This document shows, piece after piece, positions 4,483 to 58,832 of a DNA stretch of 64,000 bases. The stretch covers positions 4,318,001 to 4,382,000 of the forward strand of contig OX387610.1 of assembly GCA_947568835.1 (NCBI GenBank). The letters are read 5' to 3'. How positions within the stretch are numbered: the stretch's first letter is position 1; each line of letters opens with the position of its first letter. The notes beneath the pieces are model-generated. The model was not told where the DNA came from, did not search any database, and saw nothing but the letters and a program-made list of their open reading frames with translations. The position numbers were made by a program, and so were the translations under genes. This DNA comes from Protonemura montana. Lineage: Eukaryota > Arthropoda > Insecta > Plecoptera > Nemouridae.

Positions 4483-5083
4483 ATCTGCGTGTTCGACTGG
4501 GCATGTGACTCTGCCCCAGTGCAACTTTCACGTGTTCGACAGGGCATGTGACTCTGTCCCAGTGCAACTTTCACGTGTTCGACTGGGCATGTGACTCTGT
4601 CCCAGTGCAACTTTCACGTGTTCGACTGGGCATATGACTCTGTTCCAGTGCAACTTTCACGTGTTCGGCTGGGCATGTGGCTCTGCCCCAGTACAACTTT
4701 CACGTGTTCGACTGGGCATGTGACTCTGTTCCAGTGCAACTTTCACGTGTTTGACTGGGCATGTGACTCTGTCCCAGTGCAACTTTCACGTGTTCGACTG
4801 GGCATGTGACTCTGTCCCAGTGCAACTTTCACGTGTTCAACTGGACATGTGACTCTGCCCCAGTGCAACTTTCACGTGTTCGACTGGCAGAGTTGCTCGC
4901 TCTCGGGTCACTCCCGGTGCACTTTTCTTGCTCCAAGAATTTCGACAGTGCAATTGGAAAACAAATGAATGCACTGACTGCTAGCGCTCTCGCTCGGAGC
5001 TGGTGCAAACCCGGTGGAGAGCATGACGTCATCAAGCAAGTTTCAAACCCGCCCTGGTGCAGACCAGTCAAAAACGCGCAGAC
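4483..5083 (+). mobile_element. Repeat element carrying a 43-bp minisatellite (copy 1)
   Basis: About nine direct copies of a 43-bp unit (gtgttcgactgggcatgtga...) run from 4490 to about 4888. They are followed by about 190 bp of unique sequence ending 'cagtcaaaaacgcgcagac'. The start (atctgcgtgtt) and end (aaacgcgcagac) form a short imperfect inverted pair. The whole unit, array plus unique part, recurs inverted at 13457-14591. Each repeat unit contains the palindrome CACGTG. Confidence 0.85.
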
Positions 5084-5444
5084 TTACACCGGCTCTGGGG
5101 GTAGTGTGGAAAGTGTGACCCGGTGTCAACTCTAGAAAACAGCTGACTTAACTGAACACTGCACCAATCAACTGGTTCTTGAACTGGTTCAAAGCTGGCG
5201 GATCAGGGTTAAAGATCCTCTTTGAACCCCTCCCGAAGGTCGAACTACGGACTTCTTAGGTCGCGTGCGGCCCAGTGTCTGGCCGAGACGTGGTTCGTGT
5301 CGATTCGTTGTTTCTGTCTGACAGGTCGGGGGAGTATTATCGTGCACGATATCGGTAGTGAGACCACAAACATGGCCAGAAAACCGAAGACAGTCAGGTT
5401 TCCAACTTGCCTCCCGGATTAATTTGTTTTACCGACCGGTTTCG

Positions 5445-6064
5445 CGTGTTGGTAACACGGGCTCTAGTGAGATCACTAAAGTTAAGCAACGATTCGCAGG
5501 GTAATGTTTTGGATGGGTGACCAACGATCGGTTTGTCGTACTGGATACACTGGTACTCGTAAGATAAATTAAGTTAAGCAATACTGCGCTGGGTTAGGTA
5601 TTAGATGGGTGACCACCGAACGGTTTGGCGTGTTGGTAACACCGATTCTCGTGAGATTACCGAAGTTAAGCAACACTGCGCTGGGTCAGGTATTAGATGG
5701 GTGACCACCGAACGGTTTGGCGTGTAGCTAACACCGGTTCTCGTGAGATCACCGAAGTTAAGCAACACTGCGCTGGGTCAGGTATTAGATGGGTGACCAC
5801 CAAACGGTTTGGCGTGTTGGTAGCACCGGTTCTCGTGAGATCACCGAAGTTAAGCAACACTGCGCTGGACCAGGTATAAGATGGGTGACCACCGAACGGT
5901 TTGGCGTGTTGGTAGCACCGGTTCTCGTGAGATCACCGAAGTTAAGCAACACTGCGCTGGACCAGGTATAAGATGGGTGACAACCGAACGGTTTGGCGTG
6001 TAGCTAACACCGGTTCTCGTGAGATCACCGAAGTTTAGCAACACTGCGCTGAGCCAGGTATTGG
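5445..6064 (+). repeat. 92-bp tandem array of 5S-rRNA-like units
   Basis: Seven units. The 'cggtttggcg' landmark recurs at 5621, 5713, 5805, 5897 and 5989, exactly 92 bp apart. Each unit reads 'cggttctcgtgagatcaccg', 'aagttaagcaacactgcgc' and 'agatgggtgaccacc', which follow the invertebrate 5S rRNA consensus through the internal pol III promoter region (box A, intermediate element, box C). The first about 25 nt of 5S rRNA and its 3' helix I strand are missing, so these are not functional 5S genes. They match the head of the 5S-derived SINE elsewhere in the window. Confidence 0.88.
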
Positions 6065-6065
6065 A

Positions 6066-7950
6066 TTAAAGCGGTGAAAACTAAAGAAAAAAACACAAAT
6101 AATATGGTTGAAAACACTTAAACCATCACGGCCACTTTGACTGAACTCAATATCAATGACTTTCAAGATGGAGGACTTAGCTTCAAAGCCTCTCTACAGC
6201 AACTGCTATCTAGATCATTACAGATCAGTGGGCCATCCACATATAAACAGAACCCCACGGCCTCCAGTCACTTCCAGAACAATAATAATATCCTAGCTGC
6301 AAATTCAGGAAGGCTTTGACCGTGACAGATCGTGCGTCAACTGCATTCAAAATTCCCAGCCATTTGTAATGCCGTGTTTGTCATTTTGGCATCATTAGCG
6401 AAACGTCAGAGCAAATCGGTGTTCGCACCACGGTTTCGGGCCCCGAGGGGCTTTGTGTGGATGTGTGTATGGGGGGGGGGGGGGGGGGTCAGTGCGTTCA
6501 GCGGATGATTAGCGTCGGATTCATGTAGGATTATTCCTGGTGAAATTTCACGCGAACATACTTCATGTTGTTTCCGCTTCTTTCTGTTTGAATTCGTAAT
6601 GATGAAATATTTCTGGATTGTTTGTCTGTCGGTGCTGTTTCCGACTTAGCTATTTAAGTTACAAGACTTGGACATATTTCACGGCGGCAATGTACTGTTT
6701 GCACTACTTTCTGTGTTTGTGTGCATGTAATGTTTTTATTTAGCAGATGCTATTTTGAAATACATTTTCACATTAGCTGTTGTACTCTCTGATAGGATTT
6801 TGATAATAACATAAAATTAAATTATAATCATAAACATTAAATCATCCAGTTTCATTCTACTCTACTACATTTTTTCCCCTATCTTCTACAACATTTTCTT
6901 TAACCTTAACGTAAACATTTCTATGTCTGATTTCCTCATATCTCCTGGTAAACAATTGTAATCTTTTACTCCTTTAAACGCTTTGCTATTTCGGTACTGT
7001 TTCCGACTTGGCTATTTAAGTTACAAGACTTGGACATGGTTTGACATGAATGCAAAAACTATGCATTCAGATACGTACAGCAATTATAATTTTTAAAACA
7101 TTTTGGGGTAATGTTTGGGTTATGTGTGTAAATTATACGCAACGAAAATTATACGCAAACGAAAAAATATTTCCCAGATTTAGTTTTGCAAGAACGTAAT
7201 GTGAAAAAATATAAAATAGCTTAAAAAAAGCGAAATAATTATTTAAATTTAGATATCGGTGATAATACGGAATTGTACACGTGCGGACCGATGAAAGTTA
7301 AAATTAAAATAAAGAAAAAAATTGTGCGTTTGATGACTTTTGTTAATAAGAGTAAAACTTTGAAATTACTTAAAGATATGTAGTTCAACAATTATTGATG
7401 TGGAATTATGTTGATGTTATAAATGATTTGTGTAATTTTGGTGCAGATTTTTGTTGCTAATTATTTGAAAATATCCATGATGCAAGTTTCATTTTTAAAG
7501 AAAAATCGTTGATTTATTTCCTGGTTTGAATAATAGAGCGTTTGACGTAAGAGAGCAGAAACAGGATATGGAATTAAATTTGATATTGAATTGTTGAATC
7601 ATACTTAAATCATGCATCAATTGAGCTTACTTTTATCGAGTTGCTTCGATAAAAGCTGGCAAGCAAGGGACAAAGTTGAATATTAAAGTTGTTTGAAAAG
7701 AATTCTGATTCTTTGATTAGTCTTGATTTCATCCTCTTTCATTTCCTTTGATACCCTGAACTTTGGCACAAGAATCCACTAAAGCTGAATAAAATCTGAA
7801 CAATTCCCGGTCATTCCTGTTAATTCTTTTTTTAACTTGCGATCATGCTTGCAATGTACTACTCTCTCAAAAAATTGTACCCGAACGGGGAATTAAACAC
7901 CAACTTTGTCATTCTGATCAAATGCAATGAAATCTTTCCTAAAATGACAT
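6066..7950. other. Non-coding AT-rich spacer
   Basis: No recognisable gene. It contains a G homopolymer of about 18 nt at about 6471-6488 and a duplicated phrase 'gctatttaagttacaag' near 6649 and 7010. There is also a perfect 10-bp stem with a 6-nt loop at 7630-7655 (cttttatcga / tcgataaaag). Confidence 0.5.
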
Positions 7951-9312: not shown

Positions 9313-10022
9313 TCAAGTAAAATTCCCGGCATCGGACAGTTCATCACAATGTAAAAGTAATGGGTGGGTGAAACAAGGGTTGTCATGGCAATCTAAAACA
9401 AGTAACCCGTGCCCGGCATCGGGCAGTTCATCACAATGTAATAGTAATGGGTGGGTGAAACAAGGGTTGTCATGGCAATCTAAAACAAGTAACCCGTGCC
9501 CGGCATCTGGCAGTTCATTATAATCTAACAGTAATGGGTGGGTGAAACAAGGGTTGTCACGGCAATCTAAAACAAGTAACCCGTGCCCGGCATCGGGCAG
9601 TTCATCACAATGTAATAGTAACGGGTGGGTGAAACAATATTGTCATGGCAATCTATAAGAAGTAACCCGTGCCCGGCATCGGGCAGTTCATCACAATGTA
9701 ATAGTAATGGGTGGGTGAAACAAGGGTTGTCATGGCAATCTAAAACAAGTGACCCGTGCCCGGCATCGGACAGTTCATCACAATTTAATAGTAATGGGTG
9801 GGTGAAACAAGGGTTGTCATGGCAATCTAAAACAAGTAACCCGTGCCCGGCATCTGGCAGTTCATTATAATCTAACAGTAATGGGTGGGTGAAACAATAT
9901 TGTCATGGCAATCTATAACAAGTGACCCGTGCCCGGCATCGGGCAGTTCATCACAATGTAATAGTAATGGGTGGGTGAAACAAGGGTTGTCATGGCAATC
10001 TAAAACAAGGTCTCTGCTGACA
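9313..10022 (+). repeat. 87-bp tandem repeat, about 8 copies (locus 1)
   Basis: The 'cccggc' landmark recurs at 9325, 9412, 9499 and 9586, 87 bp apart. Each unit contains 'cagttcatcacaatg' and 'gggtgggtgaaacaaggg'. The array ends with aacaaggtctctgctgaca, the same junction that ends the second array at 29113-29515. Open frames through the array are by-products of a period divisible by three. Confidence 0.92.
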
Positions 10023-10369: not shown

Positions 10370-10622
10370 GAAACGTTTGGCAAGCCATGTCTTGAGCTGG
10401 ACAACAGCATGGGCTGCAAGCTTTGTTTGGCAAGCCATGCCTTGAGCTGGACAACAGCATGGACTGCAAGCTTTATTTGGCAAGCCATGCCTTGAGCTGG
10501 ACAACAGCATGGGCTGCAAGGTTTGTTTGGCAAGTCATGTCTTGAGCTGGACAACAGCATGGACTGCAAGGTTTGTTTGCAAGTCATGTCTTGAGCTGGA
10601 CGACAGCATGGACTGCAAGCTA
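10370..10622. repeat. 50-bp tandem repeat, about 5 copies
   Basis: Units containing caagccatgtcttgagctgg start at 10381, 10431, 10481, 10531 and 10580, a period of 50 bp with one 49-bp step. Open frames across it on the minus strand are repeat artefacts. Confidence 0.92.
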
Positions 10623-13456: not shown

Positions 13457-14591
13457 TTGCATTTTCGACTGGCCTGCACCAGGGCGGGTTTGAAACTTGC
13501 TTGTTTCGATGCCGTCATGCTCTCCACCGGGTTTGCACCAGCTCCGAGCGAGAGCGCTCCAACCCGAACACGTGATCACTAGCTGTCAGTGCATTAATTT
13601 TTTTTCAATTGCACCGTCGAAATTCTTGGAGCAAGAAAAGTGCACCGGGAGTGACCCGAGAGCGAGCAACTCTGCCAGTTGAACACGTGAAAGTTGCACT
13701 GGGACAGAGTCACATGCCCAGTCGAACACGTGAAAGTTGCACTGGGGCAGAGTCACATATCCAGTCGAACACGTGAAAGTTGCACTGGGGCAGAGTCACA
13801 TGCCCAGTCAAACACGTGAAAGTTGCACTGGGACAGAGACACATGCCCAGTCGAACACTTGAAAGTTGCACTGGGACAGTCACATGCCCAGTCGAACACG
13901 CGAAAGTTGCACTGGGGCAGAGTCACATGGCCAGTCGAACACGCGAAAGTTGCACTGGGGCAGAGTCACATGCCCAGTCGAACACGTGAAAGTTGCACTG
14001 GGACAGAGTCACATGCCCAGTCGAACACGTGAAAGTTGCACTGGGGCGGAGTCACATACCTAGTCGAACACGTGAAAGTTGCACTGGGGCAGAGTCACAT
14101 GCCCAGTCGAACACGTGAAAGTTGCACTGGAGCAGAGTCACATGCCCAGTTGAACACGTGAAAGTTGCACTGGGGCAGAGTCACATGCCCAGTCGAACAC
14201 GTGAAAGTTGCACTGGGACAGAGTCACATGCCCAGTCGAACACGTGAAAGTTGCACTGGAGCAGAGTCACATGCCCAGTCGAACACGTGAAAGTTGCACT
14301 GGGGCGGAGTCACATGCCCAGTTGAACATGTGAAAGTTGCACTGGGGCAGAGTCACATGCCCAGGCAAACACGTGAAAGTTGCACTGGGGCAGAATCACA
14401 TGCCCAGTTGAACACGTGAAAGTTCCACTGGGGCAGAGTCACATGCCCAGTCGAACACGTGAAAGTTGTACTGGGGCAGAGTTTCATGCCCAGTCGAACA
14501 CGTGAAAGTTGCACTGGGGCAGTCACATACCCAGTCAAACACGTGAAAGTTGCACTGGGGCAGAGTCACATGTCCAGTCGAACACGCAGAT
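13457..14591 (-). mobile_element. Repeat element carrying a 43-bp minisatellite (copy 2, inverted)
   Basis: Reverse-complement counterpart of 4483-5083. The unique part is at 13457-13675 (shared phrases 'ctgcaccagggcgggtttg' and 'ggagcaagaaaagtgcacc'). About 21 copies of the 43-bp unit then run to 14591, against about nine in copy 1. It ends at 'cacgcagat', the complement of the start of copy 1. Most units keep CACGTG, and a few read cacgcg or cacttg. No coding content. Confidence 0.88.
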
Positions 14592-18020: not shown

Positions 18021-18520
18021 CCGAACGGTTTGGCGTGTTGAAAACACCGGTTCTCATGAGAACACCGAAGTTAAGCAACACTGCGCTGGGTCAGGTATTG
18101 AATGGGTGACCATCATACACATGACCGGTTCTGTTCGGGAGAGAGGTTGGAGGGATGAAAGTTAAGCAACACTGCGCTGGGTCAGGTATTGTAGGGGTGA
18201 CCATTGTACACATGACCAGTTCTATTCGGCAGAGAGCTTGGAGGGATGAAAGTTAGTTCAGCAACTTCACTCGCCTTGATTGTCAACCTTTCGAAAGCAT
18301 GGATTTGTGGAGGAATCCTACTGCTCCCGATGTACCGTCCTTAGGAAGGGACGTTAAGCCGGTGGTCCCTGTGGTGCTCTTCGACAAGAGTAGGACGTGC
18401 CTGCAACGGGTTTCCCCTCTTTCTTCTAGGCTAGGTTAGACATGTTTTGACAACGGGCCCTGTGGCACTGGTATAATGGCGTCGGTGAATAAATGGATGA
18501 TGATGAGGATGATGATAGCA
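18021..18520 (+). mobile_element. 5S-derived SINE with duplicated head and inverted tail
   Basis: The 5S-like head (aagttaagcaacactgcgc) appears twice, at about 18069 and 18160. It is followed by the family body ('catggatttgtggaggaat', 'ggacgttaagccggtggtc') and 'ctaggctaggtta'. The tail then reads 'ttttgacaacgggccctgtg', which is inverted relative to intact copies, and ends in (gat)n. This is a rearranged or chimeric copy. Confidence 0.82.
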
Positions 18521-18589: not shown

Positions 18590-19384
18590 CAAACCTAGAG
18601 TTATCACACAAAAACTGTGATTGAACATCGGTTCGAATCTAAAAAAAAATCAAATCCAAAATCAAAATCGAATCCACGCATACCAATAAATTTACAATAG
18701 TAACACAATCAAGAGTTTGTAATTTAACTTTGTGTTGTAACTTTGCTTGCCTACTTAGCAAACTCCATTGAACAATTTGCCAAATAACTTTATGTGAAAT
18801 TCTCCAGGATATCGAATTCCTTAATAATGTCACCAGCAAGATCATTTCGCGACATACAAGAACTGTTTTTTTTTTTCGTTACAAACCCTCATTTTGCCTT
18901 AACTTACAACAACCACTCTGAAATAAAACCACTGAACGTACAGATTTTCATCCAAAATACAGTCCACTCCACTTCCTGTCTCGTCCAATCAGGCATAACC
19001 AACATTTCTTAGAACTGCCAAAATCACCCCAACGTACGCACGACTTACCAGGCGACGATCCTGAAAGGTGGGGTAAGTACAAGGAAATGCTTTCTCCGTT
19101 CGCCGTCGATCTAATTCGACATCAACGTCCGTGGGCATGTAGGCGTTTGGTAGGCAAGCGCTGATGCGAAACACTCGAGCCATCGTTGAGAACCTAATGT
19201 AATTAGACATTGGTGAAGGTTGGACCGATGACACGTCTCGTCTAACTTGGGACGCGCGGGGGTGAAAGGTCACTGTAGTACCAAGACACCTACGAGTGAC
19301 CTTACATGGTGGTTAAACTGTCGTAACTTATGGGTAATGAGTATAATTAGGGTTCGCTCATCAAAGATTGGTATGAATAATTTG
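18590..19384. other. Non-coding spacer
   Basis: No gene supported. A minus-strand open frame at 18989-19273 has fairly balanced codon use but no recognisable domain. Confidence 0.35.
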
Positions 19385-19750
19385 TTGTGTTTAACGACGC
19401 ACTGTTTTGACACAGGCGCCTCGTCTGCTGGTGTCAGTTAATAAGTGGGAGAAAGAGCACCAAAAGGACCACCGGCTTAACGTCCCTTCCGAAGAACGGT
19501 ACAACAGGATTCCTCCACAAATCCATGCTGTCGAGAGGTTTTATTTTTTTCCATTTCAACCTCTCTCCAAAACAGAATTGGTCGTGAGTTTGATTATCAC
19601 CTATCCAATACCTGAACCAGCGCCGTGTTGCTAAACTTCGGTGATCTCACGAGGACCTGTGTTTCCAAAACGCCAACAGTTCTGTGGTCACCCATCCAAC
19701 ACTTGACCCAGCGCAGTATTTCTTAACTTTCAGTGATATCATGAGAATAA
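19385..19750 (-). mobile_element. 5S-derived SINE with two head copies
   Basis: Minus-strand copy. The tail 'gtttaacgacgcactgttt' is at its plus-strand left end, then the body 'ggattcctccacaaatccat', then two 5S-like heads at about 19605-19650 and 19680-19745 ('aacttcggtgatctcacga', 'gtcacccatccaacacttga'). Internal deletions are present. Confidence 0.82.
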
Positions 19751-20265
19751 TACAAAAAATTCTCTGAATTTTGCCCCTCCATGAATTGCACGTTATCAGC
19801 AAGTTCGTATTTGGAGCTTATGACTCTGTATAGACTGAAAAATAATTCAAATCACTAAATAAAGATGTAAAAATCAATCAATAAGATCTATTCGGTCATC
19901 GTGATCACCCTTTCTTTTTGTCTTGGTCTCACCGTAGTCCGGCACCCGACCGCTAGTGGCGTGCCATCAATTATTTAACAAACTGCCATGCGGGTTCGTA
20001 GCGTGTCCCGGCCTCGTTACACCATTATCCCGACCAGGCGAATAATTAACAAGCAAATTTACGTCCAATTTTCGACAACCATCGACTGCCATTGAAACTT
20101 GAAGTCTTTGAGTTCACTTAAGAGCAAACACGCGTGACAGGGTCGCGTTGTCGGCGTGGTCATTTACTCCAAAAATTAAATCTCACTGCTTGTTTAAGTT
20201 CCCTGGTTATCAATTTTAAGGTATAATTTCAAAATTCCTTTGCGCCACAGCCCTGAGCCACAACC
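19751..20265. other. Non-coding spacer
   Basis: Nothing recognised. It separates the SINE from the 72-bp satellite array. Confidence 0.4.
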
Positions 20266-22178
20266 ATGGCCGATAAGAATAACACAGAGACATTTTTCAA
20301 CCCCTAGAACCTAGTACATTGGACTGCTTGGAAAAACATGGCCCATAAGAATAACACAGAGACATTTTTCAACCCCTAGCACCTTGTACATTGGACTGCT
20401 TGGAAAAACATGGCCCATAAGAATAACACAGTGACATTTTTCAACCTCTAGCACCTAGTACATTGGACTGCTTGGAAAAACATGGCCCATAAGAATAACA
20501 CAGAGACATTTTTCAACCCCTAGCACCTTGTACATTGGACTGCTTGGAAAAACATGGCCCGTAAGAATAACACAGAGACATTTTTCAACCACTAGCACCT
20601 AGTACCTACATTGGATTGCTTGGAAAAACATGACCTATAAGAATAACACAGAGACATTTTTCAACCACTAGCACCTAGTACATTGGACTGCTTGGAAAAA
20701 CATGGCCCATAAGAATAACACAGAGACATTTTTCAACCCCTAGCACCTTGTACATTGGACTGCTTGGAAAAACATGGCCCGTAAGAATAACACAGAGACA
20801 TTTTTCAACCACTAGCACCTAGTACATTGGACTGCTTGGAAAAACATGACCTATAAGAATAACACAGAGACATTTTTCAACCACTAGCACCTAGTACATT
20901 GGACTGCTTGGAAAAACATGGCCCATAAGAATAACACAGAGACATTTTTCAACCCCTAGCACCTAGTACATTGGACTGCTTGGAAAAACATGGCCGATAA
21001 GAATAACACAGAGACATTTTTCAACCCCTAGCACCTAGTACATTGGACTGCTTGGAAAAACATGGCCCATAAGAATAACACAGAGACCTTTTTCAACCCC
21101 TAGCACCTAGTACATTGGACTGCTTGGAAAAACATGACCTATAAGAATAACACAGAGACATTTTTCAACCACTAGCACCTAGTACATTGGACTGCTTGGA
21201 AAAACATGGCCCATAAGAATAACACAGAGACATTTTTCAACCCCTAGCACCTAGTACATTGGACTGCTTGGAAAAACATGGCCGATAAAAATAACACAGA
21301 GACATTTTTCAACCACTAGCACCAAGTACATTGGACTGCTTGGAAAAACATGACCTATAAGAATAACACAGAGACCTTTTTCAACCCCTAGCACCTAGTA
21401 CATTGGACTGCTTGGAAAAACATGGCCCATAAGATTAACACAGAGACATTTTTCAACCCCTAGCACCAAGAACATTGGACTGCCTGGAAAAACATGGCCC
21501 ATAAGAATAACACAGAGACATTTTTCAACCACTAGCACCTTGTACATTGGACTGCTTGGAAAAACATGGCCCGTAAGAATAACACAGAGACATTTTTCAA
21601 CCACTAGCACCTAGTACATTGGACTGCTTGGAAAAACATGACCTATAAGAATAACACAGAGACATTTTTCAACCACTAGCACCTAGTACATTGGACTGCT
21701 TGGAAAAACATGGCCCATAAGAATAACACAGAGACATTTTTCAACCCCTAGCACCTAGCACATTGGACTGCTTGGAAAAACATGGCCGATAAGAATAACA
21801 CAGAGACATTTTTCAACCCCTAGCACCTAGTACATTGGACTGCTTGGAAAAACATGGCCCATAAGAATAACACAGAGACCTTTTTCAACCCCTAGCACCT
21901 AGTACATTGGACTGCTTGGAAAAACATGGCCCATAAGAATAACACAGAGACATTTTTCAACCACTAGCACCAAGTACATTGGACTGCTTGGAAAAACATG
22001 GCCCATAAGAATAACACAGAGACCTTTTTCAACCCCTAGCACCTAGTACATTGGACTGCTTGGAAAAACATGGCCCATAAGATTAACACAGAGACATTTT
22101 TCAACCCCTAGCACCAAGAACATTGGACTGCCTGGAAAAACATGGCCCATAAGAATAACACAGAGACATTTTTCAACT
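20266..22178. repeat. 72-bp satellite array, about 26.5 copies
   Basis: Units start with atggcccataagaataacac at 20266, 20338, 20410 and so on, 72 bp apart. Copies differ mainly at the five bases after 'atgg' and at a few fixed positions, giving recognisable subtypes and a partial higher-order order. The same unit occurs at 26654-26775 (inverted) and 33411-33675. Open frames such as 21395-21610 minus arise because 72 is divisible by three. Confidence 0.96.
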
Positions 22179-22984
22179 TTGATGAAACTTTTAACTCATT
22201 CAATAAAGGTCTAAACTATTTTTTTTTAATTACATCTTCAGACGGGAAAATAGAGCTTTACGTGACCGAATTTGCCGACGTCATTGCTACTGTCTAGAAT
22301 TGAAGTTCAAAATGTTACAAAGTTTTCCCCTCCTCCTTCCCCTAACGCCACCATCTTGAAATAAGACAGTTTCACAGCTTAATCCGAGAGATTACATTGT
22401 TCCTTTATCAAATTTACCGTCCATCTCGTCGCTGAAATCATAGCGGTGCTGACAGCGTCAGCCAGGCCCATTATCTGAAGCAATTACAATTAGAAGACCA
22501 TTGACACAAGCAGACAACAAAATCTAACTAGATCCGAGAACCACTCGGCTGGAAATCAGGCGGACTTCTCCTTTCCCCGCGTTGCATATTTCCCATCAGA
22601 ACTCTACCAGCCAGTTCTGTAGACAATAAGTGATCAAGTTCGTTGCCCTCTCGCTTCTTTGCTAGACTTCCATCGAGTTTTGTTAATGAAGCCTTTAAGT
22701 TTGCCCACAATTAGCAAAGCAATAAGAATTAGCTCATTATTAAATATTTATCAATAGTTATTTATAGCTTTATAATCAAGGATAATTGTTCTTGTTAACT
22801 AATCTATAAAGTAGCAGTGAGGTAGCAATGGTTTGTACCATCTCTAAGGGTAGGTACATAATTTTAAACAGAATATTTAAGATCGTTTGCTGATCTCCTG
22901 CCATGTTTGCTCAAATAATGCTCTGTGATTTGTGATAAGCACAGAGCACAAGGAAGTTGAAATATTTCAACTTTGTGAAACACG
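22179..22984. other. Non-coding spacer
   Basis: No gene, RNA gene or repeat recognised. One 60-codon minus-strand frame (22528-22710) is unsupported. Confidence 0.4.
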
Positions 22985-23215
22985 TGCTTATTGCTATGTC
23001 AATTGTGTGCAGTCCCATATGATAACCAATTTTTAAGATCCTTGTGCGCTATGCTTGTGCCTGTTGCTATGTCAATTGTGTGCAGTCCCATATGATAACC
23101 AAGTTTTAAGATCCTTGTGCGCTATGCTTGTGCTGATTGCTATGTCAATTGTGTGCAGTCCCATATGATAACCAAGTTTTGAGATCCTTGTGCGCTATGC
23201 TTGTGCTTACTGCCA
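22985..23215. repeat. 73-bp tandem repeat, 3 copies
   Basis: Copies begin ttgctatgtcaattgtgtgc at 22991, 23064 and 23137, exactly 73 bp apart, with few substitutions. A degraded fourth start (ctgccatgccgattgtg) follows. Confidence 0.92.
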
Positions 23216-23835
23216 TGCCGATTGTGGGTAGACCTTTACACTAAAGCGTCATTTTTTTGAAATGCTGTGACACAGAAATGCTTTCATTTAAGCGAATCGA
23301 GAAAGCTTATGAACTAAATTGAAAGCGCCATGATGAGGCTGGAAATTCAGTTTCCTTTTTGGTGACGTCACCATTAGTTGCAATATACAATGACAGGAAA
23401 ATAACTTGTTGGGATCTAATTATATTCGTCTGGGAAATACCTTCCAGGATTCAAGGCAGTTTAAGAGGATTATATTATATTTTTATGTTCTGAGAAATAA
23501 TGGGAACCCGCTCGGAAAAGCGCTCGGAAAAGCGGTCGGGAAAGCGCTAATGGAACTCGCTAATGCAACACACTTTCACTGTAACGGCGGAAAACTTTGA
23601 AAAGCTTAAAATTCAAAGCATTTGTCTTAGCTTATCAGTAAAGACCCATGTAAAGCAAGAACTTGAGCGTCTTCCCTGAACACTTTCCTTGGAAAATGAC
23701 TCGAGTAATTTTGTTGTACTTTGCGAATTGAGATACATCTGGAACATATGGGGCTAATAGCATATGGAGTACATTTATTACATTTAGTCCCACGGGAAGA
23801 ACATGCACCTGAGCGATGGTGCAATGTGCTAACCA

Positions 23836-24060
23836 TTGCTCTTATGGGTTAATGTTGCAAGACAGCTGTGTGGTCAGCCATTCTAACTGGTGGACACCAC
23901 AATTGCTCTTATGGGTTAATGTTGCAAGACAGCTGTGTGGTCGGCCATTCTAACTGGTGGACTTCACCATTGCTCTTATGGGTTAATGTTGCAAGACAGC
24001 TGTGTGGTCGGCCATTTTAACTGGTGAACTTCACCATTGCTCTTGTGGGTTAATATTACA
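23836..24060. repeat. 67-bp tandem repeat, about 3.3 copies
   Basis: Copies starting ttgctcttatgggttaatgt occur at 23836, 23903, 23970 and 24037, 67 bp apart. Confidence 0.92.
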
Positions 24061-24420
24061 AGAATTAACTCAATTAAACCTAACTCGCTTAATCCAACAC
24101 TGTATACATAATCTTATCCCCATAAACTCCCCAAGCCCCCAGATTTAAACTAAGTTGAACTTACTGAGAAAAAAGTGTCCCGCTATTTGTCAGTTCTTCG
24201 GTGAACTATCGCTCCAACTTGAGATGTTGCCCGGACACAAAGTTGGTGACCGATCGATGAACAGAAGGAAAACAAGTTTCAAGTTTCCGGATTGGTCAAT
24301 AACGGCCGACAGCTTGTTTTATGAAGACAAATGAACTCTATTATTATAGTAAGACGACCACAGAAGTTATAAAGACATATAAAACCAATGCTATGATGTA
24401 TGAACGTGAATGTACTCCTA

Positions 24421-24810
24421 GGTTAGATGGTGACCAAGCCAGGCTTGTAAGCCATATGTAAGGCAGACTTGGCGCTCTCACTACCAGGATAGCCGGCCAC
24501 AAGGATCGAACCTGGGACCTCCTGAATGCATGGCAGACATGGCGCTCTCACTACCAGGATAGCCGGCCACCAGGATCAAACCTGGGACCTCTCGAATGCA
24601 AGGCAGACATGGCGCTCTCACTACCAGGAAAGCCAGCCACCAGAATCGAGCCTAGGACGTCCTGAATGCAAGGCAGACATGGCGCTCTCACTACCAGGAT
24701 AGCCAGCCACCAGGATCGAACCAGGGACCTCCTGAATACAAGGTAGTCTTGACGCTCTTACTACCAGAAAAGCCAGCCACTAGAATCGAATCTGGCACCT
24801 CCAGAACACA
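24421..24810 (-). repeat. 70-bp tandem array of tRNA-like units
   Basis: The landmark ggcgctctcactaccagg recurs at 24471, 24541, 24611, 24681 and (diverged) 24751, exactly 70 bp apart. On the minus strand each unit has an A-box-like stretch (tggtagtgagagcgcc), a central 'ccttgcattcaggaggtcc' resembling an alanine-tRNA anticodon arm, and a B box (caggttcgatcctgg) at tRNA spacing. The 'gccggc' stretches could form the ends of an acceptor stem. The tandem arrangement and drift argue for a tRNA-derived satellite rather than functional genes. Confidence 0.75.
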
Positions 24811-28310: not shown

Positions 28311-29112
28311 AAATATTATTCGATGATTGCCTTTCCACAACAACGACAACGTTTGTGAACAACGACAGAGTTCACAGAAAATATTTTTAATCCCCACTGA
28401 CAAAACTGTGTCCGCTTCTATCGAAAATATAGCCCCAGCTTCACGTTATTTCAATCTTGACACAGTGCACACAAACATCCTGATTGTATTTTGCCAGAAT
28501 GTCAGAATCCTGACATAATTGCCAACTGCACAACCTTTAACCTTTAATATCCCGTTACTGGGGATTTCGAGCGGTGATGTTAGCACTAAAAGGCACCATA
28601 ACCGTCTTTTCACGAGAATGATAATATGCACCGTGAAACTACGCAGCTTTGTTTGTCATATAGTGCAACATGCTTGCCTCCCACAACGTACAGCGTCGGC
28701 AGGGAGCGGAAAATTGTCTTCGGCGACGTCGAAAGATGACCTTTCAGAGATTAGAATCTGCTGGCGAAACCACAGCGCGGCCAAGCGGAGAAATCACAAA
28801 CCCGTCATAGACCTGCTAGACTTATCAAGGGAAATATCAAGACATAGATTGGCTTCAGTTTCTTAGAGCAAGTTGCCAATCGTGAGGCTCTTGGCAACAT
28901 TTTGATGTAGACCATGCAATGCATTTTGTTGATTCGGATTTAGTATGCTGTAACGTCATGTGACAGGAAATAATTAATATGATTACAACCCTGTTCCAAT
29001 TTAGGCTAAACTACAGATAGAAAGTGGGGTATCTCACCACCATCAGATCTGAGCTTTCTTATAAAAATCATATTTTCTTAGCAAATCTACCCAAAAGAAT
29101 TGCAATTTAGCA
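28311..29112. other. Non-coding spacer
   Basis: No recognisable gene. The open frame at 28519-28866 (115 codons) lacks a domain or splice support. Confidence 0.35.
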
Positions 29113-29515
29113 ATTGGTGAGTGAAACTAGGGTTATTACGGCAATCTAAAGCAAGTTACCCCTACCCGGCATCGGGCAGTTCATTACAATGTAATAGTAA
29201 TGGGTGGGTGAAATAAGGGTTGTCACGGCAATCTAAAACAAGTAACCCGTGCCCGGCATCGGGCAGTTCATCACAATGTAATAGTGATGGGTGGGTGAAA
29301 CAAGGGTTGTCATGGCAATCTAAAACAAGTAACCCGTGCCCGGCATCTGGCAGTTCATCCCAATGTAATAGTAATGGGTGGGTAAAACAAGGGTTGTCAC
29401 GGCAATCTAAAACAAGTAACCCGTGCCCGGCATCTGGCAGTTCATCACAATTTAACAGTAATGGGTGGGTTAAACAAGGGTTGTCATGCAATTTAGAACA
29501 AGGTCTCTGCTGACA
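29113..29515 (+). repeat. 87-bp tandem repeat, about 4.5 copies (locus 2)
   Basis: Same unit, same orientation and same 3' junction (aaggtctctgctgaca) as the array at 9313-10022, but with about half the copies. The 130-codon minus-strand frame across it is a repeat artefact. Confidence 0.92.
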
Positions 29516-37463: not shown

Positions 37464-49956
<12,493 letters not shown>

Positions 49957-51071: not shown

Positions 51072-54000
51072 TTATTTTCTCGGTAATATCCTCGTCGTCT
51101 TGAAGGGAGGCCTGGCTCGATGCCGAGTTTGCCGTGCCACCGCTGGGCGGAATGCCAGCTCGGCAGCGAGGGCAGCACAGCTGGCAGCAAGGCCAAGTGC
51201 CACCAGCGCTCCGACGGCAGCCACGTGAACCAACTCCACCTGGGAACAAGGAACTGAACTAACAGAGATGCAAAAACAACGTTCTACACTGAGTTTGATT
51301 GCTACTTGATATGATATTCTCATAAATTAGAGATTTCAAAGATATCCTGTGAAAAGTTAATGGTATGGGGAAGATTATTACCCATTTTTGTTTTTATTAA
51401 GAGGTTTTTATTTTGTTTTTCAGCCATTTAAGTTTTTATACTTATACTATAAAGGATGCAAGGCGTTTGGATAATTAAAAGCTAACAAAACAAATGCAGA
51501 ATTTTATCTCTGGTAAGGTAAGTAGTCTTAAATGAACAGGAGGTTAAAATGAAAATATAAGTATTCGATTAGTTGTCCTCATGGAGAAAAGAACTTCACT
51601 GGCAATTTTGTATTTGACCAGACGTAAAACTGGCGCACATAAGCAGTACTTTTTGTTTCTATTCTATCATCGCAACGAGTTGGTTGATTCGTTCGCACCT
51701 GTTGGACGCTTGGTTCACTGGTGGTCGGCACTTCCGGCATTTGCAGAAGGTGTGCCACCACGCCAGAGTCACGCAGCACTCGTAGACTGAAACATGTGCC
51801 AATTTTGTCAAAGGGATCAAGGTCATCATACAAGTATAACAAGGACCCAGGTATCAATCTTGGGAATGCAGGATTTTTTATTTTTGGTGAACCACCTAGA
51901 AGTTGAAACCAGCAAACGCTGTATGGAAGCTGCAAATATTTGTAACCGAATCGGAGTGCGAAGCCAGGACCTTCTGATTGCCAGTCAGGTGCTCTATCAA
52001 CTGAGCTTTCTAGGCACACAGGCTCCAGCATCATATACCTATTTGGTTGCACATTTTTCCACTCAAGCTCCCCTACAATCCTGAGAATCTTGCGAGAGTA
52101 ACGAAACCCAAGACTTTATGACCCCACAAAAGGTTTGACCAAAACACTTTGAATGGAGTTTAAACTATTGCGGAAGGAATAGGAATAAACGATGAGGAAT
52201 AAATGTTGGTTCTTACGATGTTCCCAGGGTTAAGCAACAGAGCTCTTTGTCAGTATTATTGGGTGACCATCAAACAATATTTGGGGTAATTTATAAGGCA
52301 TAACATCCTCTAACATTTTTTATGCAAAAATGTTTGATGCTAACATAAAATATTCAAACTTGCTAAATAACCACCCATTTTACTTGTTATATTTTATAAT
52401 AAAAGGAAATTGAAATCCCTTAGCTCACTTTGACGTAGACTTTTAGTTCCAGGTTTTCCCTGCTTTGTAAGCTTGGGTAATAATGTTTATAATTATTTAA
52501 TAAGCATTAGTAAAGCAGCCAGACTTAAACTGGAAACCACTAGTTAAGCAAAGGCAGAAAAACAGTCTCCTATGTCTAAAGAATCATTCATCAATCATCA
52601 TCATTCCATTGTAGGGGAGATAGCAAAAAATTGTCAAAACCTATTGAAGATATTCTCGGTACAACGCCAACATGGGGCGGTGTGAAACCATCTCAGTGTG
52701 AAACTCACTTTCATCAAACCTTCAGAATGTAAAGATTTTTAACAAAATAATACTTATTTTGTCAATCAACCACCGCAGAAAACATTGTAATTATATTAAA
52801 AAAAGTAAAACTCCTAAGTTGTCAATAAACAAAGTAGTTGTGTGAGTCGTCCTTACTTGTGGTCTATGAGACCCCTGATTGGCCAGTTCTTGGCCACGAA
52901 ACTAGACACTGACTGGGTGAGGAAAGCCTCTGGCACGGGCACCAGCTCGCACCCTCCTGCACGCAGCGTGGATTCCTTAGGGAGGTACACGTCTGACTCG
53001 AGCCAGGCGTAGTGCTCCTCTGCGCAAACTCTACGTGCCCCCGCAGCGCTGTCCAGCGGCATGGAGTTGATGTGAGGGGTGATCAGCTGGTCGTACATGC
53101 GACGCACGAGGCGGCTACTGGTGTTCTGTGCACCAGTGTTGAGAGAATTAGTTGGGTTGGAAGGAAGGAGATTACTAAATGTTCAATTCCAGTGCCATTC
53201 ATTTCCACAAAGAGTGTTACTTGAGATCAGCTAGCTGGATCCTATGCTCTGTCTAGGCTATTTGAGATCAGCTGGCTGGATCCTATGCTCTATCCAGGTT
53301 ATTTGAGATCAGTGTCTACCCCATTGGCCATTACACCTGATTAAAGTAGACCTGCTGCGAGCCTCTTGGTATGCCGAGCTGGTAGCGGGAATCCTCAGCA
53401 AACTCGGCGATGCTCGCGAAGGGCATTAGTGTGCGCTGCACGGACAGCACCGCGGTGAGGACGGCCGAGAGCGCAGCCGCAAGCACAACGCCTGTCAAGC
53501 CGATCACAGCCAGGGCAAGCCGTGCAGACGTTTCGCTAGGAGCAGGCATGCTGTCACCTGGACACATGGTGGAGAACCACATATTTACAACCTTGGGAGC
53601 AAGCCTTGGGAGCAAGCCACCAGCTAGAAACTCTGGTCATCGTGAGATGACTCAAGTTAATCATCACTGCGCTGAGTCAGGTATTGGATGACTGACCATC
53701 AAACGGATGACCAATTCTGTTTGGGAGAGAGGATGAAAGTTAGTACAACTTCACTCTTCTTGCTAATCAACGTCTAGACAGCATGGATTTGTGGAGGAAT
53801 CCTGTTGTTGGCGTTGTACCGCCTTTCAAAAGAGACGCTAAGCCGATGGTCACCTTTGCGCTTTTGACAAGAGTTCCGGCACTAGGTTTTCCCTTCTCTT
53901 AGCATCATTCTCATCATCCACTCATTCACCGACGCCATCAGACCAGTACCGCAGGGCTCATTGTGAAAACAGTATGCTATTAAGCCCTGCTAATCAATCT

Positions 54001-57000
54001 TTTATCTCTAATAGAGATTTCCTATTATAGCGAGAGCAGCTTGAAGTAGTAGCAACGAATGGACGTATTTCCTCACGGCAGATTGGTGCTTTTCTTTATG
54101 ATTCATCCAGCTATATCATAATCTTCATTACCTTGCAAACAAAGCATTGCCGTCGCATGGAAGATTGCATCGGCTAGGCGACACACTTGCATTGCCCATG
54201 AAGAGCGTGCGTAGTGACCAGTGCGTAGGGCTGTAAGGCAGGACGCAGCCAGTAGAGTGCAGCATCCGATGGCCAGCCACAAGCCAGGAGAGAATGCCGA
54301 GAGGATGCCCGAGTCTGCGTTGCCTTCAGGCTTGCGGATGAAGATGTGAGACCTGCACAAGGCAGTGGGCAGACAGTCGAGGATTTCCTGGTCACGATTG
54401 ATGGCTGATTGCATGAATGTCTAGCTTAACCTGGTTATAGTCGATCTGACAGTTAAATTAATTTTTAATGATGTTCTGATATTTTGAAAGTTTTTAATTA
54501 AAATAATTATAAAAATATTTTTAAAAAATTTGATTTTTGCATTTAAATTGTGGTATTCATTCAAGAGTGCACTTTTCTGTCATGTCAAACTAAATTAGTT
54601 TTTAGCTGTCAATATTTTTGCTTTGTGCTAGCCTTTCTTTAAAAATTGAAACTTGATCAATTTGTTTTAATTTTCAACTGGTTTTCGAGTTAAAAAAAAA
54701 AAGTGCAAGACATAGCAGACAATAATTTCTTTGCCTCAAAAAAATCAAATTTAAATTAAATTCTGTGCTAAAAGCTAAATTTACTTGCTTGACGTTTTCA
54801 AAATGTAGTTGATTTAGCGAACATCAAATCTTGAGCCTAAACTGAGTTGAAACCAAGTTTAGCTTGATGTCGGTAGAATCGGCTCTTTAAGGAGCAAGTA
54901 ATTAACATGATTAGCACACTTAAATAAAAGTAAGCATTACTCACAAAATGCTCAATCCCGAACGAGACCTTGCACTGTACATGCATTCATAAACCGTTCA
55001 CTCACCTGAACTGCATAAGTGGCATAAGGAAGGAGACAGCCTCCGCCCTCTCGGCATTCAACGCAAAGTCCCCGAGCGCGAGGTCTGCTTCTCCTCGCAT
55101 CACCATGCCGACCATGCCGTTCCAAGAACCGTTGGCATCTCTCAGCCCGTAGGCGCTGGTGGGGGCTACAATCACCTCGGTGCTGTAAGACAGGCGAAGA
55201 CTTAGACATGGCTGCTTGGTGTGAGACTAGGCTAGGATCGGCGGATTAGTTCTTTAAATTCAGCACATTTTCAAAAATAAGAATCTTGATTAGGATGAAA
55301 TCTTAGTTAAATTGCAAACCTTTGCAATGCGCTGGGTATTTTATTATTTTCAACACTATAAACGTCTCAAAAATTGATGTCTCAAAAAGATCGAGGTTCG
55401 AGTCCCCGTTTGGGCATCAATTTTTAAGACGTTTACAGTGTTGATAATAATAAAAAAAAAAAAAAATCTTGATGTTTCCTTAACTACACATAGTGAAATC
55501 AAAACATTTCTAACAAGAACGCAAAAATGTGTTAGGAGATTTCAAAGTTTCAGTCCCAGTTTTTCACTAGTTCCTTAGTAACAACAGCCTGTTAATTAAT
55601 TCTTTTGCTTAGCAACATTCAATCAGAAGGTGTTGTTTGTTTGTTAACAGTCTGTTAAAGGCTTAACGGCTTTTATATACTTATTTCACATAAAGGAAGA
55701 AGGTTAATAATTCTTTTCATCCATAGAGCGAGACAAGCTTGCCCTTTTCTAAAACAGCCCCTAGACGCAGCCCGCAGAGCAAACTCGGCACCTCCACACA
55801 AAAACATAAAATTGTATCTATTATCGGAAAATGGATAATTGAAACACCTTGAAAGCAAAGAGAATTTTCAATTAGTTGTTGCAGAAGCTGAGACCTGAAG
55901 GACAACCCTAGTTGACCGCAATAAAAGAAACCGTCGCCCATGACTTACGTGAAGTTCATCTTGGCCTCCAGGATTGCCCAGAGCTTCCCCATGGACCCTC
56001 CTAGGCTGGGTTTGCCGTCCACCCCATGCTGAATGGTAACCATAATAGACTGAAACAAAGGGCAGGTAATGTCATGAAGCTGACAGATTTGTTGCGATTA
56101 CCTGCGGAGTCCATTGATTGATTGCATAGTAAGGTTAAGCGTCGCACTGTTTTGACAACGGGGCATTTGGCACTGGTCTAATGGCGTCGGTGAATGAGAA
56201 GTTGTTTAAAGGGATGATGATGAACCTAACTTCGATTAGAAGGGATGAGGGGAAATCCGGTGCTGGCACGTAGCCTACCCCTGTTAATCTTACGAGAACC
56301 GGCGTTTTCAATACAACAAACAGTTCGGTCTATTTAACAGAGAAATAGTTAAGTAGAGGTCTTACGTTCAAAGTGGCAGCACGCACGCGTAGTCCACGCA
56401 GGTTTGTTCTACGCTCGTAGATGTCCTTCGTTGGTCCCTCGAGGCCCCGTGCGGGCCCTTGCCCCTCACTCCTACGGTCCTCCCCAGCCACTGCGGGCCC
56501 ACGATGTGTCTCGGTGCGGTCCAGTGCCGGCCGATCTTCCCGCCAGGTAGCGAAGTGGGCGGCGATAAGTGCGCTTTCGGCGGCCACACGGTACACCTCG
56601 GTCAAGGTCACGTGACTGGACACGCCCTCGGCTGTGGGCGGTGACGAGTCGGCCAATAATAGCTCGCAGTCGAAAGGCACGTGCACATGCTACAAGGGAT
56701 ATAATTTCCATGAACCAATTTATAGCATTGATTTATTTGTTGTCTTAGGCGACGCACTGTTCTGACAATAGACCACGTGACACTTGTCTAATAGGATTGG
56801 TTAATCTGTAGTTAATAAGGATGAGGATAAACCTGGTGTGGCTTTGAAGGTAGTCGGGAAATTCAAGTGCTGGCAAGTAGCCGGTGATTGAGTGGATGAT
56901 GATGACCCTAACATAGCTTAGAAAGAAGGAAGGAAAACCCAGTGCCGGAAAGTAGCCTACTCCTGTCAAAGAGATCAAGGGGACCACCGAAGGAAGGTAC

Positions 57001-58426
57001 AACGCAAACAACAGGTTTCCTCTACAAATCGATGCTGTTGAGAGGTTGATAAGCAAGGCGAGTTAAGTTACTGTACTATTTTGTATTCCTTAAACTGCTG
57101 TTCTGAACAGAACTAGGAATGAGTATGGAGGTTGCCCATCCAATGCCTGACTCAGCGCAGTGTTGCTTAACTTCGGTGATCTCACGAGGACCGATGTTTC
57201 CAACACGCCAAACCGTACGCCTTGACAAATGACTAACTAATTGCACTGCTTTTTAAACACAATCAATGACCGCTGTTGTTTTGGCAAGGTCCGAACCAGA
57301 TCTAGACTGGAAGAACGACATGCACAGGAGAACATTGGACAAACCTGAAGGACCGTGGCGCCGTCCTGTCCGTCGTCCAGAAAGAGCAACCATCGAGGGA
57401 TCGAAGGAAGCTGCAACCGATTTGAAATGTTATTGAATTCTAACAAGCAACGGCGATGAATTGTATTTGGAGTTACTTAGAAACCACAAATCAGTTGTGG
57501 GGTATAAGTCCTGGGGAGATATTGCTAGGAGGCTGGAGACAGCACAAGACCGCGGAAGATCGGACCACCCTAAGAAGATGCTGGAAAGGGGCTACAACAC
57601 AGATATAGGAAAATACTCCTTTCTAGCAGTCAGTGTACGTGCATGGAATCGTCTCCCAAGGGAATTAGTGGATCCCATAGCAGATAATGTCAACAAATTT
57701 AAAACCCAAATTAAAATTCTAAAATTCTAAAATTGTAATTGTACTTAGAGATGATATTAAGATGTTTGTAACCGAGTATAACATGTAACTCAAAACAAAT
57801 GTATAAATAAATTATTATTATTATTATTATGACAAAGCCACAAAAGCAAAAGCCAGCATTTTTTTTTTTTTGCAGAATATCAGCAAAAAATTATTAAACT
57901 AATGAAATTTCAAAAAATGTCACCTATTTTTTTCATTTGTGTTTTAAATATTTTAATTATTTAGTCTGCAATTTGGGGAAAATAATGGCAACTGGAAGAC
58001 GATGCACAATTATAATGAGTGACCAAAATATCTGCGAGATTTCACCCAGAATTCTGTATTTTCATCACTAACCTTGACCATCTTCCGCAGGGCCTGCGCA
58101 GCATGACCACCAGGCAGCAGCACAATCAGCGGTCTGTTGCTTCTACAACGCCACGACGCATGCGCAATTTCCCTGATCCGCGTCACGAGGACCAATGACG
58201 TCATTGTCCCTCTCGTGGACAGCGCTTTGAGCATGCCCAGAGCGCCCGACGCAGCAAGGTCGTCGACCCCAAGCACAACGCATCCGGCGCGCAGCCGCGC
58301 AGCTAGAGCTATAATGACTCCGAGTTGCTGCGCGTTTGTGCAGCGCTCTGTGTTGGCGCACTGGATGCAGCTGGCCAACGCCACTAGGAAGGCGACGGTG
58401 CGATGCGAAGCCATGATGTACTTCAT
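51072..58426 (-). CDS. Ionotropic receptor (variant glutamate receptor family)
   Basis: Ligand-gated cation channel subunit of the protostome IR family, used in chemosensation, thermosensation or hygrosensation. Ten exons on the minus strand: 58073-58426, 57345-57410, 56366-56689, 55949-56049, 55006-55182, 54132-54352, 53352-53557, 52857-53125, 51699-51786, 51072-51239. All junctions are GT-AG and phases close to about 657 aa. There is a signal peptide (VAFLVALASCIQC) and a short extracellular N terminus. The first ligand-binding lobe includes NGSWNGMVGMV, GEADLALGDFALNAERAEAVSF with the conserved Arg. M1 is PGLWLAIGCCTLLAASCL, and the pore region ends at QGDSM. M3 is SETSARLALAVIGLTGVVL then ALSAVLTAVLSV. 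The second lobe contains RVLRDSGVVAHLL, and M4 is VAAVGALVALGLAASCAAL. A subfamily like insect IR75 is possible but not established. Start could be the ATG at 58426 or 58414. SINEs, a 41-bp repeat and a LINE fragment lie in introns. Confidence 0.92.
51895..52025 (-). mobile_element. tRNA-derived SINE (second family) in receptor intron 8
   Basis: Minus strand reads 'aagctcagttgatagagcac' (A box), 'ctgactggcaatcagaaggtc' trimmed at the stem, then 'ggcttcgcactcc' in the B-box position and 'cagcgtttgctggtttc'. Related to 35232-35345. Confidence 0.75.
52206..52283 (+). mobile_element. 5S-derived SINE head fragment
   Basis: The phrases 'cagggttaagcaacagagct' and 'attgggtgaccatcaaaca' match the 5S-like head. 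The body is absent. Lies in receptor intron 8. Confidence 0.65.
53219..53311 (+). repeat. 41-bp repeat, about 2.3 copies, in receptor intron 7
   Basis: The sequence ttgagatcagctagctggat and its next copy match the unit of the array at 545-750. Confidence 0.88.
53629..54000 (+). mobile_element. 5S-derived SINE, near full length, in receptor intron 6
   Basis: Head 'catcgtgagatgactcaagt' with 'tattggatgactgaccatc', body 'catggatttgtggaggaatc', tail 'ttcaccgacgccatcagacc'. Complete order from head to tail with several small deletions. Confidence 0.86.
55301..55455. mobile_element. tRNA-SINE/foldback element in receptor intron 4
   Basis: The left end has 'aaattgcaaacctttgcaat' and 'caacactataaacgtctc'. 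The right end has 'gttcgagtccccgtttgggc' (B box), 'agacgtttacagtgttgat' and an A-rich end. The 'tataaacgtctcaaaaattgatg' stretch, read to 20 bases, is inverted relative to the right side, so the core folds back. Confidence 0.78.
56130..56332 (-). mobile_element. 5S-derived SINE, internally deleted, in receptor intron 3
   Basis: Tail 'aagcgtcgcactgttttgac', middle 'ggtgctggcacgtagccta', then a jump to 'gagaaccggcgttttcaata' and 'caaacagttcgg' from the head edge. The body and most of the 5S part are deleted. Confidence 0.82.
56742..57228 (-). mobile_element. 5S-derived SINE, long copy, in receptor intron 2
   Basis: Tail at 56742 ('cgacgcactgttctgacaat'), body 'gaccaccgaaggaaggtaca' and 'tttcctctacaaatcgatg', 5S head near 57140-57228 ('gcttaacttcggtgatctca'). 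Part of the tail region is duplicated (56880-56960), making the copy longer than 400 bp. Confidence 0.85.
57470..57830 (+). mobile_element. 5'-truncated LINE 3' end in receptor intron 1
   Basis: An open stretch (57461-57730) encodes RGYNTDIGKYSFLAVSV and RAWNRLPRELV. This is the same C-terminal signature as the intact ORF2 at 44457-47204 (RTDIGKYCLAAEGVRLWNNLP), though from a different element. It is followed by an untranslated tail ending in (att)n at about 57814-57830. Confidence 0.8.
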
Positions 58427-58483
58427 TCTGAACAAATTATACAATTCATTGATTGGTTTGCTGTGTTATCTACGCACTTTTTA

Positions 58484-58832
58484 AATAACAGGACATGTGG
58501 CCCTGGTCTATTAATGTCTCTGATAAAACTAGCGTTAAAACGGTAGCGACACGTAGCCCTGTCGAAGAGCATCAAGGGGACCACCGACTTAACGTTCCTT
58601 CCGGAGGACGGTACAACACGAACAACAGGATTCCTCCACAAATCCAGACTGCCAAGAGATTGACAAGCAAGGCGAGTGAAGTTGTTGTATGAACTTTCAT
58701 CCCTTCAACCACTTTTTGAACATAACTGGTAATTTGTTTAATGGTCACCCACCTAATGCCTGACCCAATGTAGTGTTGCTTAACTCACAAGGACCGGTGC
58801 TTCCAGCAAGCCAAACCGTTCGGTGGTATAAG
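58484..58832 (-). mobile_element. 5S-derived SINE just upstream of the receptor gene
   Basis: Minus-strand copy: 'ggccctggtctattaatgtc' tail, 'gaccaccgacttaacgttcc' and 'ggattcctccacaaatccag' body, 5S head 'gtgttgcttaactcacaagg'. It starts 58 bp upstream of the receptor start codon, so it overlaps the promoter or 5' leader. Confidence 0.85.

Follow-up and report, generated by a model that had tools for sequence, protein, structure and literature searches.

A 92-bp tandem array in the stonefly Protonemura montana as the probable remnant of a multi-headed 5S-rRNA-derived SINE copy

The 92-bp tandem array described here probably represents, at a rough chance of three in four, the heads of a multi-headed SINE copy. 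On this reading the SINE, which is 5S-rRNA-derived and about 433 bp long, has had its first 92 bp become a minisatellite. A function is not needed to explain it. The window, by which we mean the whole stretch of DNA analysed, is 64,000 nucleotides long, and it was compared with the genome, an assembly of 258 Mb whose 34 contigs include 11 longer than 12 Mb.

The array was called by TRF with a period of 92, 6.9 copies and 88% matches. Tiling with a 92-nt unit divides it into seven units (Table 1). A sequence-only reading of the window had proposed seven 92-bp units in tandem, and both methods bear this out. It had placed the array at 5445..6064; the array is there, and its true start is 5431, at the 5′ terminus of the SINE. 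This terminus is reached at the 5′ end only, and no SINE body follows the last unit. Units 1 and 2, at the 5′ end, match the others with identities of 0.73–0.82, and units 3–7 match one another with identities of 0.89–0.99. The slight differences between units, which had been read as an internal phylogeny, are therefore real.

Table 1. Coordinates of the array, its units, the SINE copies and other repeats in the window.
Feature	Position	Strand	Basis
92-bp tandem array, about 6.9 SINE heads	5431..6066	+	TRF; 92-nt unit tiling
Unit 1, nt 1–92, diverged, 84% to tiling unit; starts at SINE 5′ terminus	5431..5522	+	
Unit 2, diverged, 83% to tiling unit	5523..5614	+	tiling, unit comparison
Unit 3	5615..5706	+	tiling, unit comparison
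Unit 4; GTAGCTAACACC common to units 4 and 7	5707..5798	+	
Unit 5; 99% identity with unit 6	5799..5890	+	
Unit 6	5891..5982	+	tiling, unit comparison
Unit 7, ends at nt 84; SINE body absent after it	5983..6066	+	
SINE copy, one head and one 91-bp internal duplication (18068–18255)	18021..18516	+	TRF (duplication)
Old SINE copy, partial and near-complete head at the same junction, then body pieces	19374..19747	−	
SINE head fragment, nt 31–92	38396..38457	−	
SINE copy, 5′-truncated head and body	47906..48286	+	
SINE copy, 5′-truncated head and body	53627..53999	+	
SINE fragment, head nt 1–43 and 3′ part of body	56134..56329	−	
SINE copy, single head	56729..57219	−	
SINE copy, single head, 5′ end ACCGAACGG	58450..58824	−	
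70-bp array, about five units	24456–24806	−	
LINE	43141–47204	+	
AATG repeats after the LINE	47350–47405		
Other minisatellites, units 41–114 bp	549–749, 2087–2528, 4488–4887, 9325–10009, 10375–10621, 13675–14586		
Other minisatellites, units 41–114 bp	20265–22177, 22984–23226, 23832–24063, 29108–29502, 33412–33673		

The relation of the units to 5S rRNA was examined with the Rfam 5S_rRNA model, whose gathering score is 38. One search gave matches of 49.6 and 38.2 bits within the array, and a second search of the array region gave 52.7, 38.2 and 34.5 bits, two of which reach 38. On these scores the 5S likeness of the array is well above chance. Over 5S nt 1–92, 72 of 89 aligned positions are identical between the genome's own 5S and the consensus of 213 near-complete units, which were taken from 28 array loci including the window; the likeness claimed from the letters of the window is thereby confirmed. 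The array unit corresponds to nt 1–92. It starts at the equivalent of 5S nt 1 and is missing about 28 nt at the 3′ end. The sequence-only reading was thus right that the 3′ end of the gene is lacking and wrong that the 5′ end is. It was also right that the units are not 5S genes, as none is a full-length gene close to the species' 5S.

In the numbering of the 5S promoter, box A lies at about 50–64 and box C at about 80–97. Going by this numbering, each 92-nt unit presumably contains box A and most of box C. At non-CpG positions the variability among units is 0.023 in box A, 0.037 in box C and 0.047 elsewhere, and at CpG positions it is 0.10; these descriptive values are at most a weak hint of constraint on the promoter.

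The SINE itself consists of a full 5S-like domain, then a body, then a simple-repeat tail. The 5S-like domain of one single-head copy (L045) scores 62.1 bits over positions 1–120 of the Rfam 5S model, and that of another SINE scores 66.8 bits over the same positions. Both strands of the closing helix, CCGAAC and GTTCGG, are present in the two single-head domains examined. Because the SINE has the full domain, the array unit is a 3′-truncated piece of it. Nineteen of 20 single-head copies begin with ACCGAACGG or with a sequence one letter off, after unrelated flanks; in the single-head copy L059 the match starts at nt 4. Ten of the 20 copies carry exact terminal repeats of 10–13 nt, one in the flank and one beyond the tail; the number rises to 16 when repeats of 6–8 nt are included, the short ones being counted without a chance control. 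The tails of these 20 copies are mostly AAT-rich. The element therefore has the 5S-derived 5′ region, the target-site duplications and the simple-repeat tail of a 5S-headed, SINE3-like SINE. Copies with the same head are scattered through the window, as had been noticed before; in the one at 18021..18516 a 3′ part is inverted (18443–18516).

The window also holds a LINE with an endonuclease and a reverse transcriptase, together with a PHD-finger match below the Pfam cut-off. AATG repeats follow it. This LINE is a possible partner of the SINE. A comparison by eye of the SINE 3′ end with this LINE alone gave no clear match.

Arrays of the 92-bp type are widespread. The window array used as a query was matched at no fewer than 40 distinct places and an array from contig C2 at no fewer than 39, each count including the query's own place; the union comprises at least 60 loci, window included. 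The sequence-only reading had raised the question of other 92-bp arrays in the genome, and these searches answer it with at least 39 other places in one search and at least 59 in the union. For closer comparison we used 28 distinct loci, which are 30 minus an overlapping duplicate and minus one of a duplicated pair, with the window counted once. TRF gives 5.6–13 copies at these loci, a range biased by the seven-unit query.

The boundaries of the arrays tell what they are. At seven of the 28 loci (L015, L024, L026, L027, L030, L032 and L038) the last head continues into the SINE body, which is poor at L032 (69%) and short at L027. The body is absent at the remaining 21. Heads also run into the body at all eight further loci, which were chosen by a match to two heads plus body: two heads at L067, L068 and L066 (the last with an extra partial head), three at L064, four at L069, and four or more at L065, L070 and L071. 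The array starts at nt 1–5 in 14 of the 28 loci, where about 1.5 would be expected under uniform starts. Within 1.2 kb of the array boundaries, and at E ≤ 1e-5, different array loci share nothing but the SINE body, the duplicated pair L011 and L012 excepted. From the shared body, the starts at nt 1–5 and the heads that run into the body, it follows that these loci are SINE copies with repeated heads. The earlier suggestion of a tandem amplification limited to the SINE head is thus supported by the same sequence, by the start at the SINE 5′ end and by body-attached heads at 15 loci. A carrier element with shared flanks was considered and rejected, as only the SINE body and the one duplicated pair are shared. 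The two loci of this pair, L012 and L011 (C15:1496909 and 1538599), lie 42 kb apart with identical 3′ flanks of at least 1.2 kb, and represent a recent duplication or an assembly duplicate.

A single head was found in 20 of 20 single-head loci examined, and no extra heads were listed among the 39 best matches to a query of one head plus body (self excluded). Five arbitrary 10-kb stretches contained six or more SINE places; 91-bp duplications were present at two of these and a 92-bp array at none. Given the prevalence of one head in these samples, multi-headed copies are a minority.

The junction between heads is nearly constant. Of 206 joins, 203 link nt 92 precisely to nt 1; the count was made at loci from the 92-bp queries and on contiguous head hits only, with large gaps and overlaps excluded beforehand. 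Mean unit identity is 0.936 within loci and 0.904 between loci, and for 108 of 213 units the nearest unit lies in the same locus. Head variants were compared in 14 of the 15 body-attached loci, L030 being left out. Judged by eye, variants shared by most heads of a locus and rare in others occur at L024, L038, L065 and L069, and alternating heads occur at L015, L038, L070 and L071. Variants shared within a copy and heads that alternate indicate that the arrays grew in place. The picture is one of in-place expansion by small blocks, with the junction already present beforehand. No positional kinship was found between the last and the next-to-last heads at 14 loci (difference 0.001, 49 of 500 permutations). 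Copying of arrays from neighbours was rejected: identity is 0.908 on the same chromosome and 0.909 otherwise, a result reached by 1237 of 2000 permutations.

The genomic placement of the arrays is uneven. Of the 60 listed array loci, 54 lie on six smaller contigs of chromosome size (C5 and C11–C15; 102 of the 258 Mb), compared with 21 of the 40 listed single-head copies (Fisher p = 4e-5). A second single-head query placed 21 of 39 on these contigs (p = 7e-5), and copies with one 91-bp duplication gave 24 of 39 (p = 0.001). Other copies with two true heads and a body were on them in nine of the ten matches listed. Contigs were divided into larger and smaller ones only once the first list had been seen, and the p-values are descriptive. 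Ranking by likeness could bias the locus lists; the two 92-bp queries, taken from different contigs, agree. The array loci are also clustered. Their nearest neighbours lie at a median distance of 296 kb; loci placed at random on the contigs that carry them give 785 kb, and the observed median was reached in 1 of 2000 simulations (n = 59, one of the duplicated pair left out). For single-head copies the observed clustering was reached by 180 of 2000 simulations (n = 35, five on C16 left out). The 92-bp type shows no subtelomeric preference, with 2 of 60 listed loci within 1 Mb of a contig end. The 91-bp type, described below, lies nearer the ends: the median distance is 0.93 Mb and 19 of 37 loci, merged from 45 of 126 matches listed, are within 1 Mb.

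The course of events that we propose has five steps. It begins with the SINE as described above, whose high-identity copies carry target-site duplications. In some copies nt 92, just after the box-C core, is joined exactly to nt 1, giving two or more heads, each with the region from box A to box C and its own putative start point. This junction probably arose once or a few times and spread with SINE copies or by gene conversion. Since transcription could start in either head, the daughters of a two-headed copy could have one head or two. At each locus the heads next multiplied in blocks of one to three units; growth in place is shown by the shared variants and alternating units, and unequal exchange or replication slippage may have been the process. 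Lastly, the window copy would have lost everything after nt 84 of its last unit, including the body. We take this copy to be old because its 5′ units have diverged and its body is gone. The order of these steps is testable, since junctions, flanks and unit variants can be read.

Among the observations against this explanation are that 21 of the 28 loci are without a body and that the same SINE makes 91-bp arrays with another junction. The number of origins is a further point. Most arrays have heads of the type C33 G39 G70, and at L027 they are nearly always T33 T39 A70, as in the 20 single-head copies. A tree of the bodies has no starred branch. Multi-headed bodies are scattered in it (11 copies need nine changes, and 102 of 500 shuffles need no more). 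Single-head copies cluster in it (0 of 500 shuffles as low), but 20 of these had been picked by likeness to one query. The scatter of multi-headed bodies and the occurrence of arrays in both head subtypes also fit a recurrent origin.

The same data bear on a different route, in which the heads multiply at the RNA or cDNA stage. The reverse transcriptase of the partner LINE would reach nt 1, jump to nt 92 of a SINE RNA (another one or the same) or of a 5S-like RNA, and copy the head once more, so that insertions are born multi-headed and the junction recurs. The near-constant junction, the two head subtypes, the lack of clustering of multi-headed bodies and the position of nt 1 as the 5′ end in 19 of 20 single-head copies are all in line with such a jump. 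So are the variants common to all heads of L038 and L065 and to 10 of 11 heads of L024, as if from one RNA. The terminal duplications speak against it. In 6 of 30 array entries a 10-nt stretch of the 5′ flank recurred, with at most one mismatch, in the 1.3 kb downstream; mismatched control pairs gave 45 of 232, so the rate is that of chance. Of six multi-headed copies inspected by eye, four had both ends nearly complete, and none was cleanly flanked by a duplication; in L068 a 10-nt repeat stands 3 nt ahead of the first head and again 64 nt beyond the body. With terminal duplications at chance level, retroposition of the multi-headed form itself lacks support, which weighs against the explanation preferred here as well. 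In addition, microhomology should merge the ACC of nt 1–3 with the ACC of nt 90–92, and the commonest junction keeps both. Alternating units would need later growth in place in any case. We consider this route unlikely, though it is the rival that survives best.

The SINE has given rise to a second minisatellite. Its 91-bp unit consists of head nt 49–92 and body 1–47, with AAGTTA microhomology at both ends. It occurs once duplicated in the window (Table 1) and at L040, L017, L023, L026 and L038, and extends up to long arrays near contig ends. The 91-bp arrays are more uniform than the 92-bp ones, with complete matches 96–99% identical to the query. The 70-bp array of the window contains a B-box-like GGTTCGATCC and looks tRNA-like by eye; neither ARAGORN nor Rfam called it. 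Arrays of this type occur in at least 39 other places. A 68-bp minisatellite at L018, L023 and L030 has a likeness of 25–48 nt to SINE nt 236–283. At the loci examined, 47 further TRF rows show no SINE likeness; they form 25 families, several of which recur on other contigs.

These repeats invite a broader reading, that internal pol III promoter segments are themselves prone to tandem repetition. The fixed junction would then mark a promoter-linked event, for instance a reverse transcriptase that switches from one pol III RNA to another, or a replication fork stalled where the promoter is bound. The region from box A to box C, nt 49–92, is common to both SINE array types (nt 1–92 and nt 49–139), and the 70-bp array with its B-box-like motif can be cited as a third. 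The 68-bp minisatellite counts against the idea, because its likeness to the SINE falls outside the promoter. We regard this reading as doubtful.

It is very improbable that the array came first, as an independent 5S-derived satellite that seeded the SINE heads. In favour of it, arrays occur at many places and their unit equals the 5′-most 92 nt of the 5S-like domain. The units are without the 3′ strand of the closing helix that is present in the SINE, and therefore the unit cannot be the SINE's whole source. Furthermore, three motifs of the window array, with two occurrences each, were absent from 20 single-head loci, from another 35 loci with arrays or several heads, and from the remainder of the window; this search covered a sample of loci and not the whole genome. 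As these motifs turned up nowhere else in that sample, the window array is not a visible seed, and the suggestion that it is the source from which heads are drawn is not supported for it. Two more motifs, GTTGGTAACACC and GGGTCAGGTATTAGATGGG, recur in other array loci, 10 and 8 times respectively, and in none of the 20 single-head loci. The shorter CTGGACCAGG is present once among the 20 single-head loci.

An assembly artefact is less probable still. Tandem repeats are error-prone, and the flanks of L011 and L012 are identical at a distance of 42 kb. Against this, units differ, flanks differ between the other loci examined and unit numbers vary. The number of units in the window array may still be off. 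Finally, decay of ordinary tandem 5S rRNA genes can be practically dismissed despite the 5S likeness of the array, because the real 5S genes of this genome score 109–118 bits in clusters with kilobase spacing, unlike the units, which carry SINE-specific changes and at some loci join the SINE body; ordinary 5S gene identity is ruled out on these grounds. The real 5S genes lie near contig starts, on C11 (first 106 kb, both orientations), at the start of C15 and on C23. None of the 60 listed array loci is at a real 5S gene cluster.

The preferred reading, a SINE copy with repeated heads, ties a dispersed retroelement to the birth of a satellite and finds the intermediates kept in one genome: copies with one head, with two or three heads and a body, with anything from four to about thirteen heads, and finally arrays that have no body. 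The case is of moderate interest because these intermediates are visible side by side in a single genome.

SINE3-type 5S-headed SINEs and dimeric SINEs are known classes. The copies described here resemble them in the 5S-derived head and in head duplication, and differ in having 2 to about 13 heads and in behaving as a minisatellite. Dimeric SINEs are mentioned in PMC10702118. The literature searched yielded no description of a 5S-headed SINE with its heads in tandem, which does not prove absence.

Several systems combine 5S-related sequence or SINEs with tandem repetition. PcP190 of frogs is tandem DNA related to the 5S transcribed region, as here; its repeats are about 190 bp long with a 120-bp 5S-like part and are described as 5S rDNA-like, whereas the immediate source here is a SINE and a spacer is absent. 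The centromeric repeat of Hoplias is likewise reported to be a satellite DNA derived from 5S rDNA. In the toad Pelobates cultripes, tandem SINEs are concentrated on certain chromosomes, two in the toad, according to PMC9164646; the likeness holds at the level of tandem SINEs. The plant TRIM element Cassandra also is a retroelement with 5S promoter sequence in tandem arrays. It is an LTR element, and its repeat is an LTR plus internal domain (PMC7215508), whereas here it is the bare head.

The closest parallel is with the SINE-derived satellites (sSats) of squamates, in which parts of tRNA-headed SINEs stand in tandem (Vassetzky, Kosushkin and Ryskov 2023, PMC10702118). In both cases the tandem unit covers less than the whole length of a SINE, the end unit reaches a SINE terminus and sub-variants alternate. 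The sSats of snakes are subtelomeric, and the 91-bp type tends the same way. The differences are that the head here is 5S-derived and not tRNA-derived, that the 92-bp unit, which spans box A to box C, starts at the 5′ end of the SINE, and that the 92-bp arrays are interstitial and mainly on the six smaller contigs. With a unit that is a SINE portion, an end unit that extends to the SINE terminus and at least four middle monomers (seven units in the window), the 92-bp arrays belong to the SINE-derived satellite kind. The authors of the squamate study treat the restriction of sSats to squamates as uncertain. The arrays of P. montana suggest that SINE-derived satellites are not limited to the tRNA-headed SINEs of reptiles.
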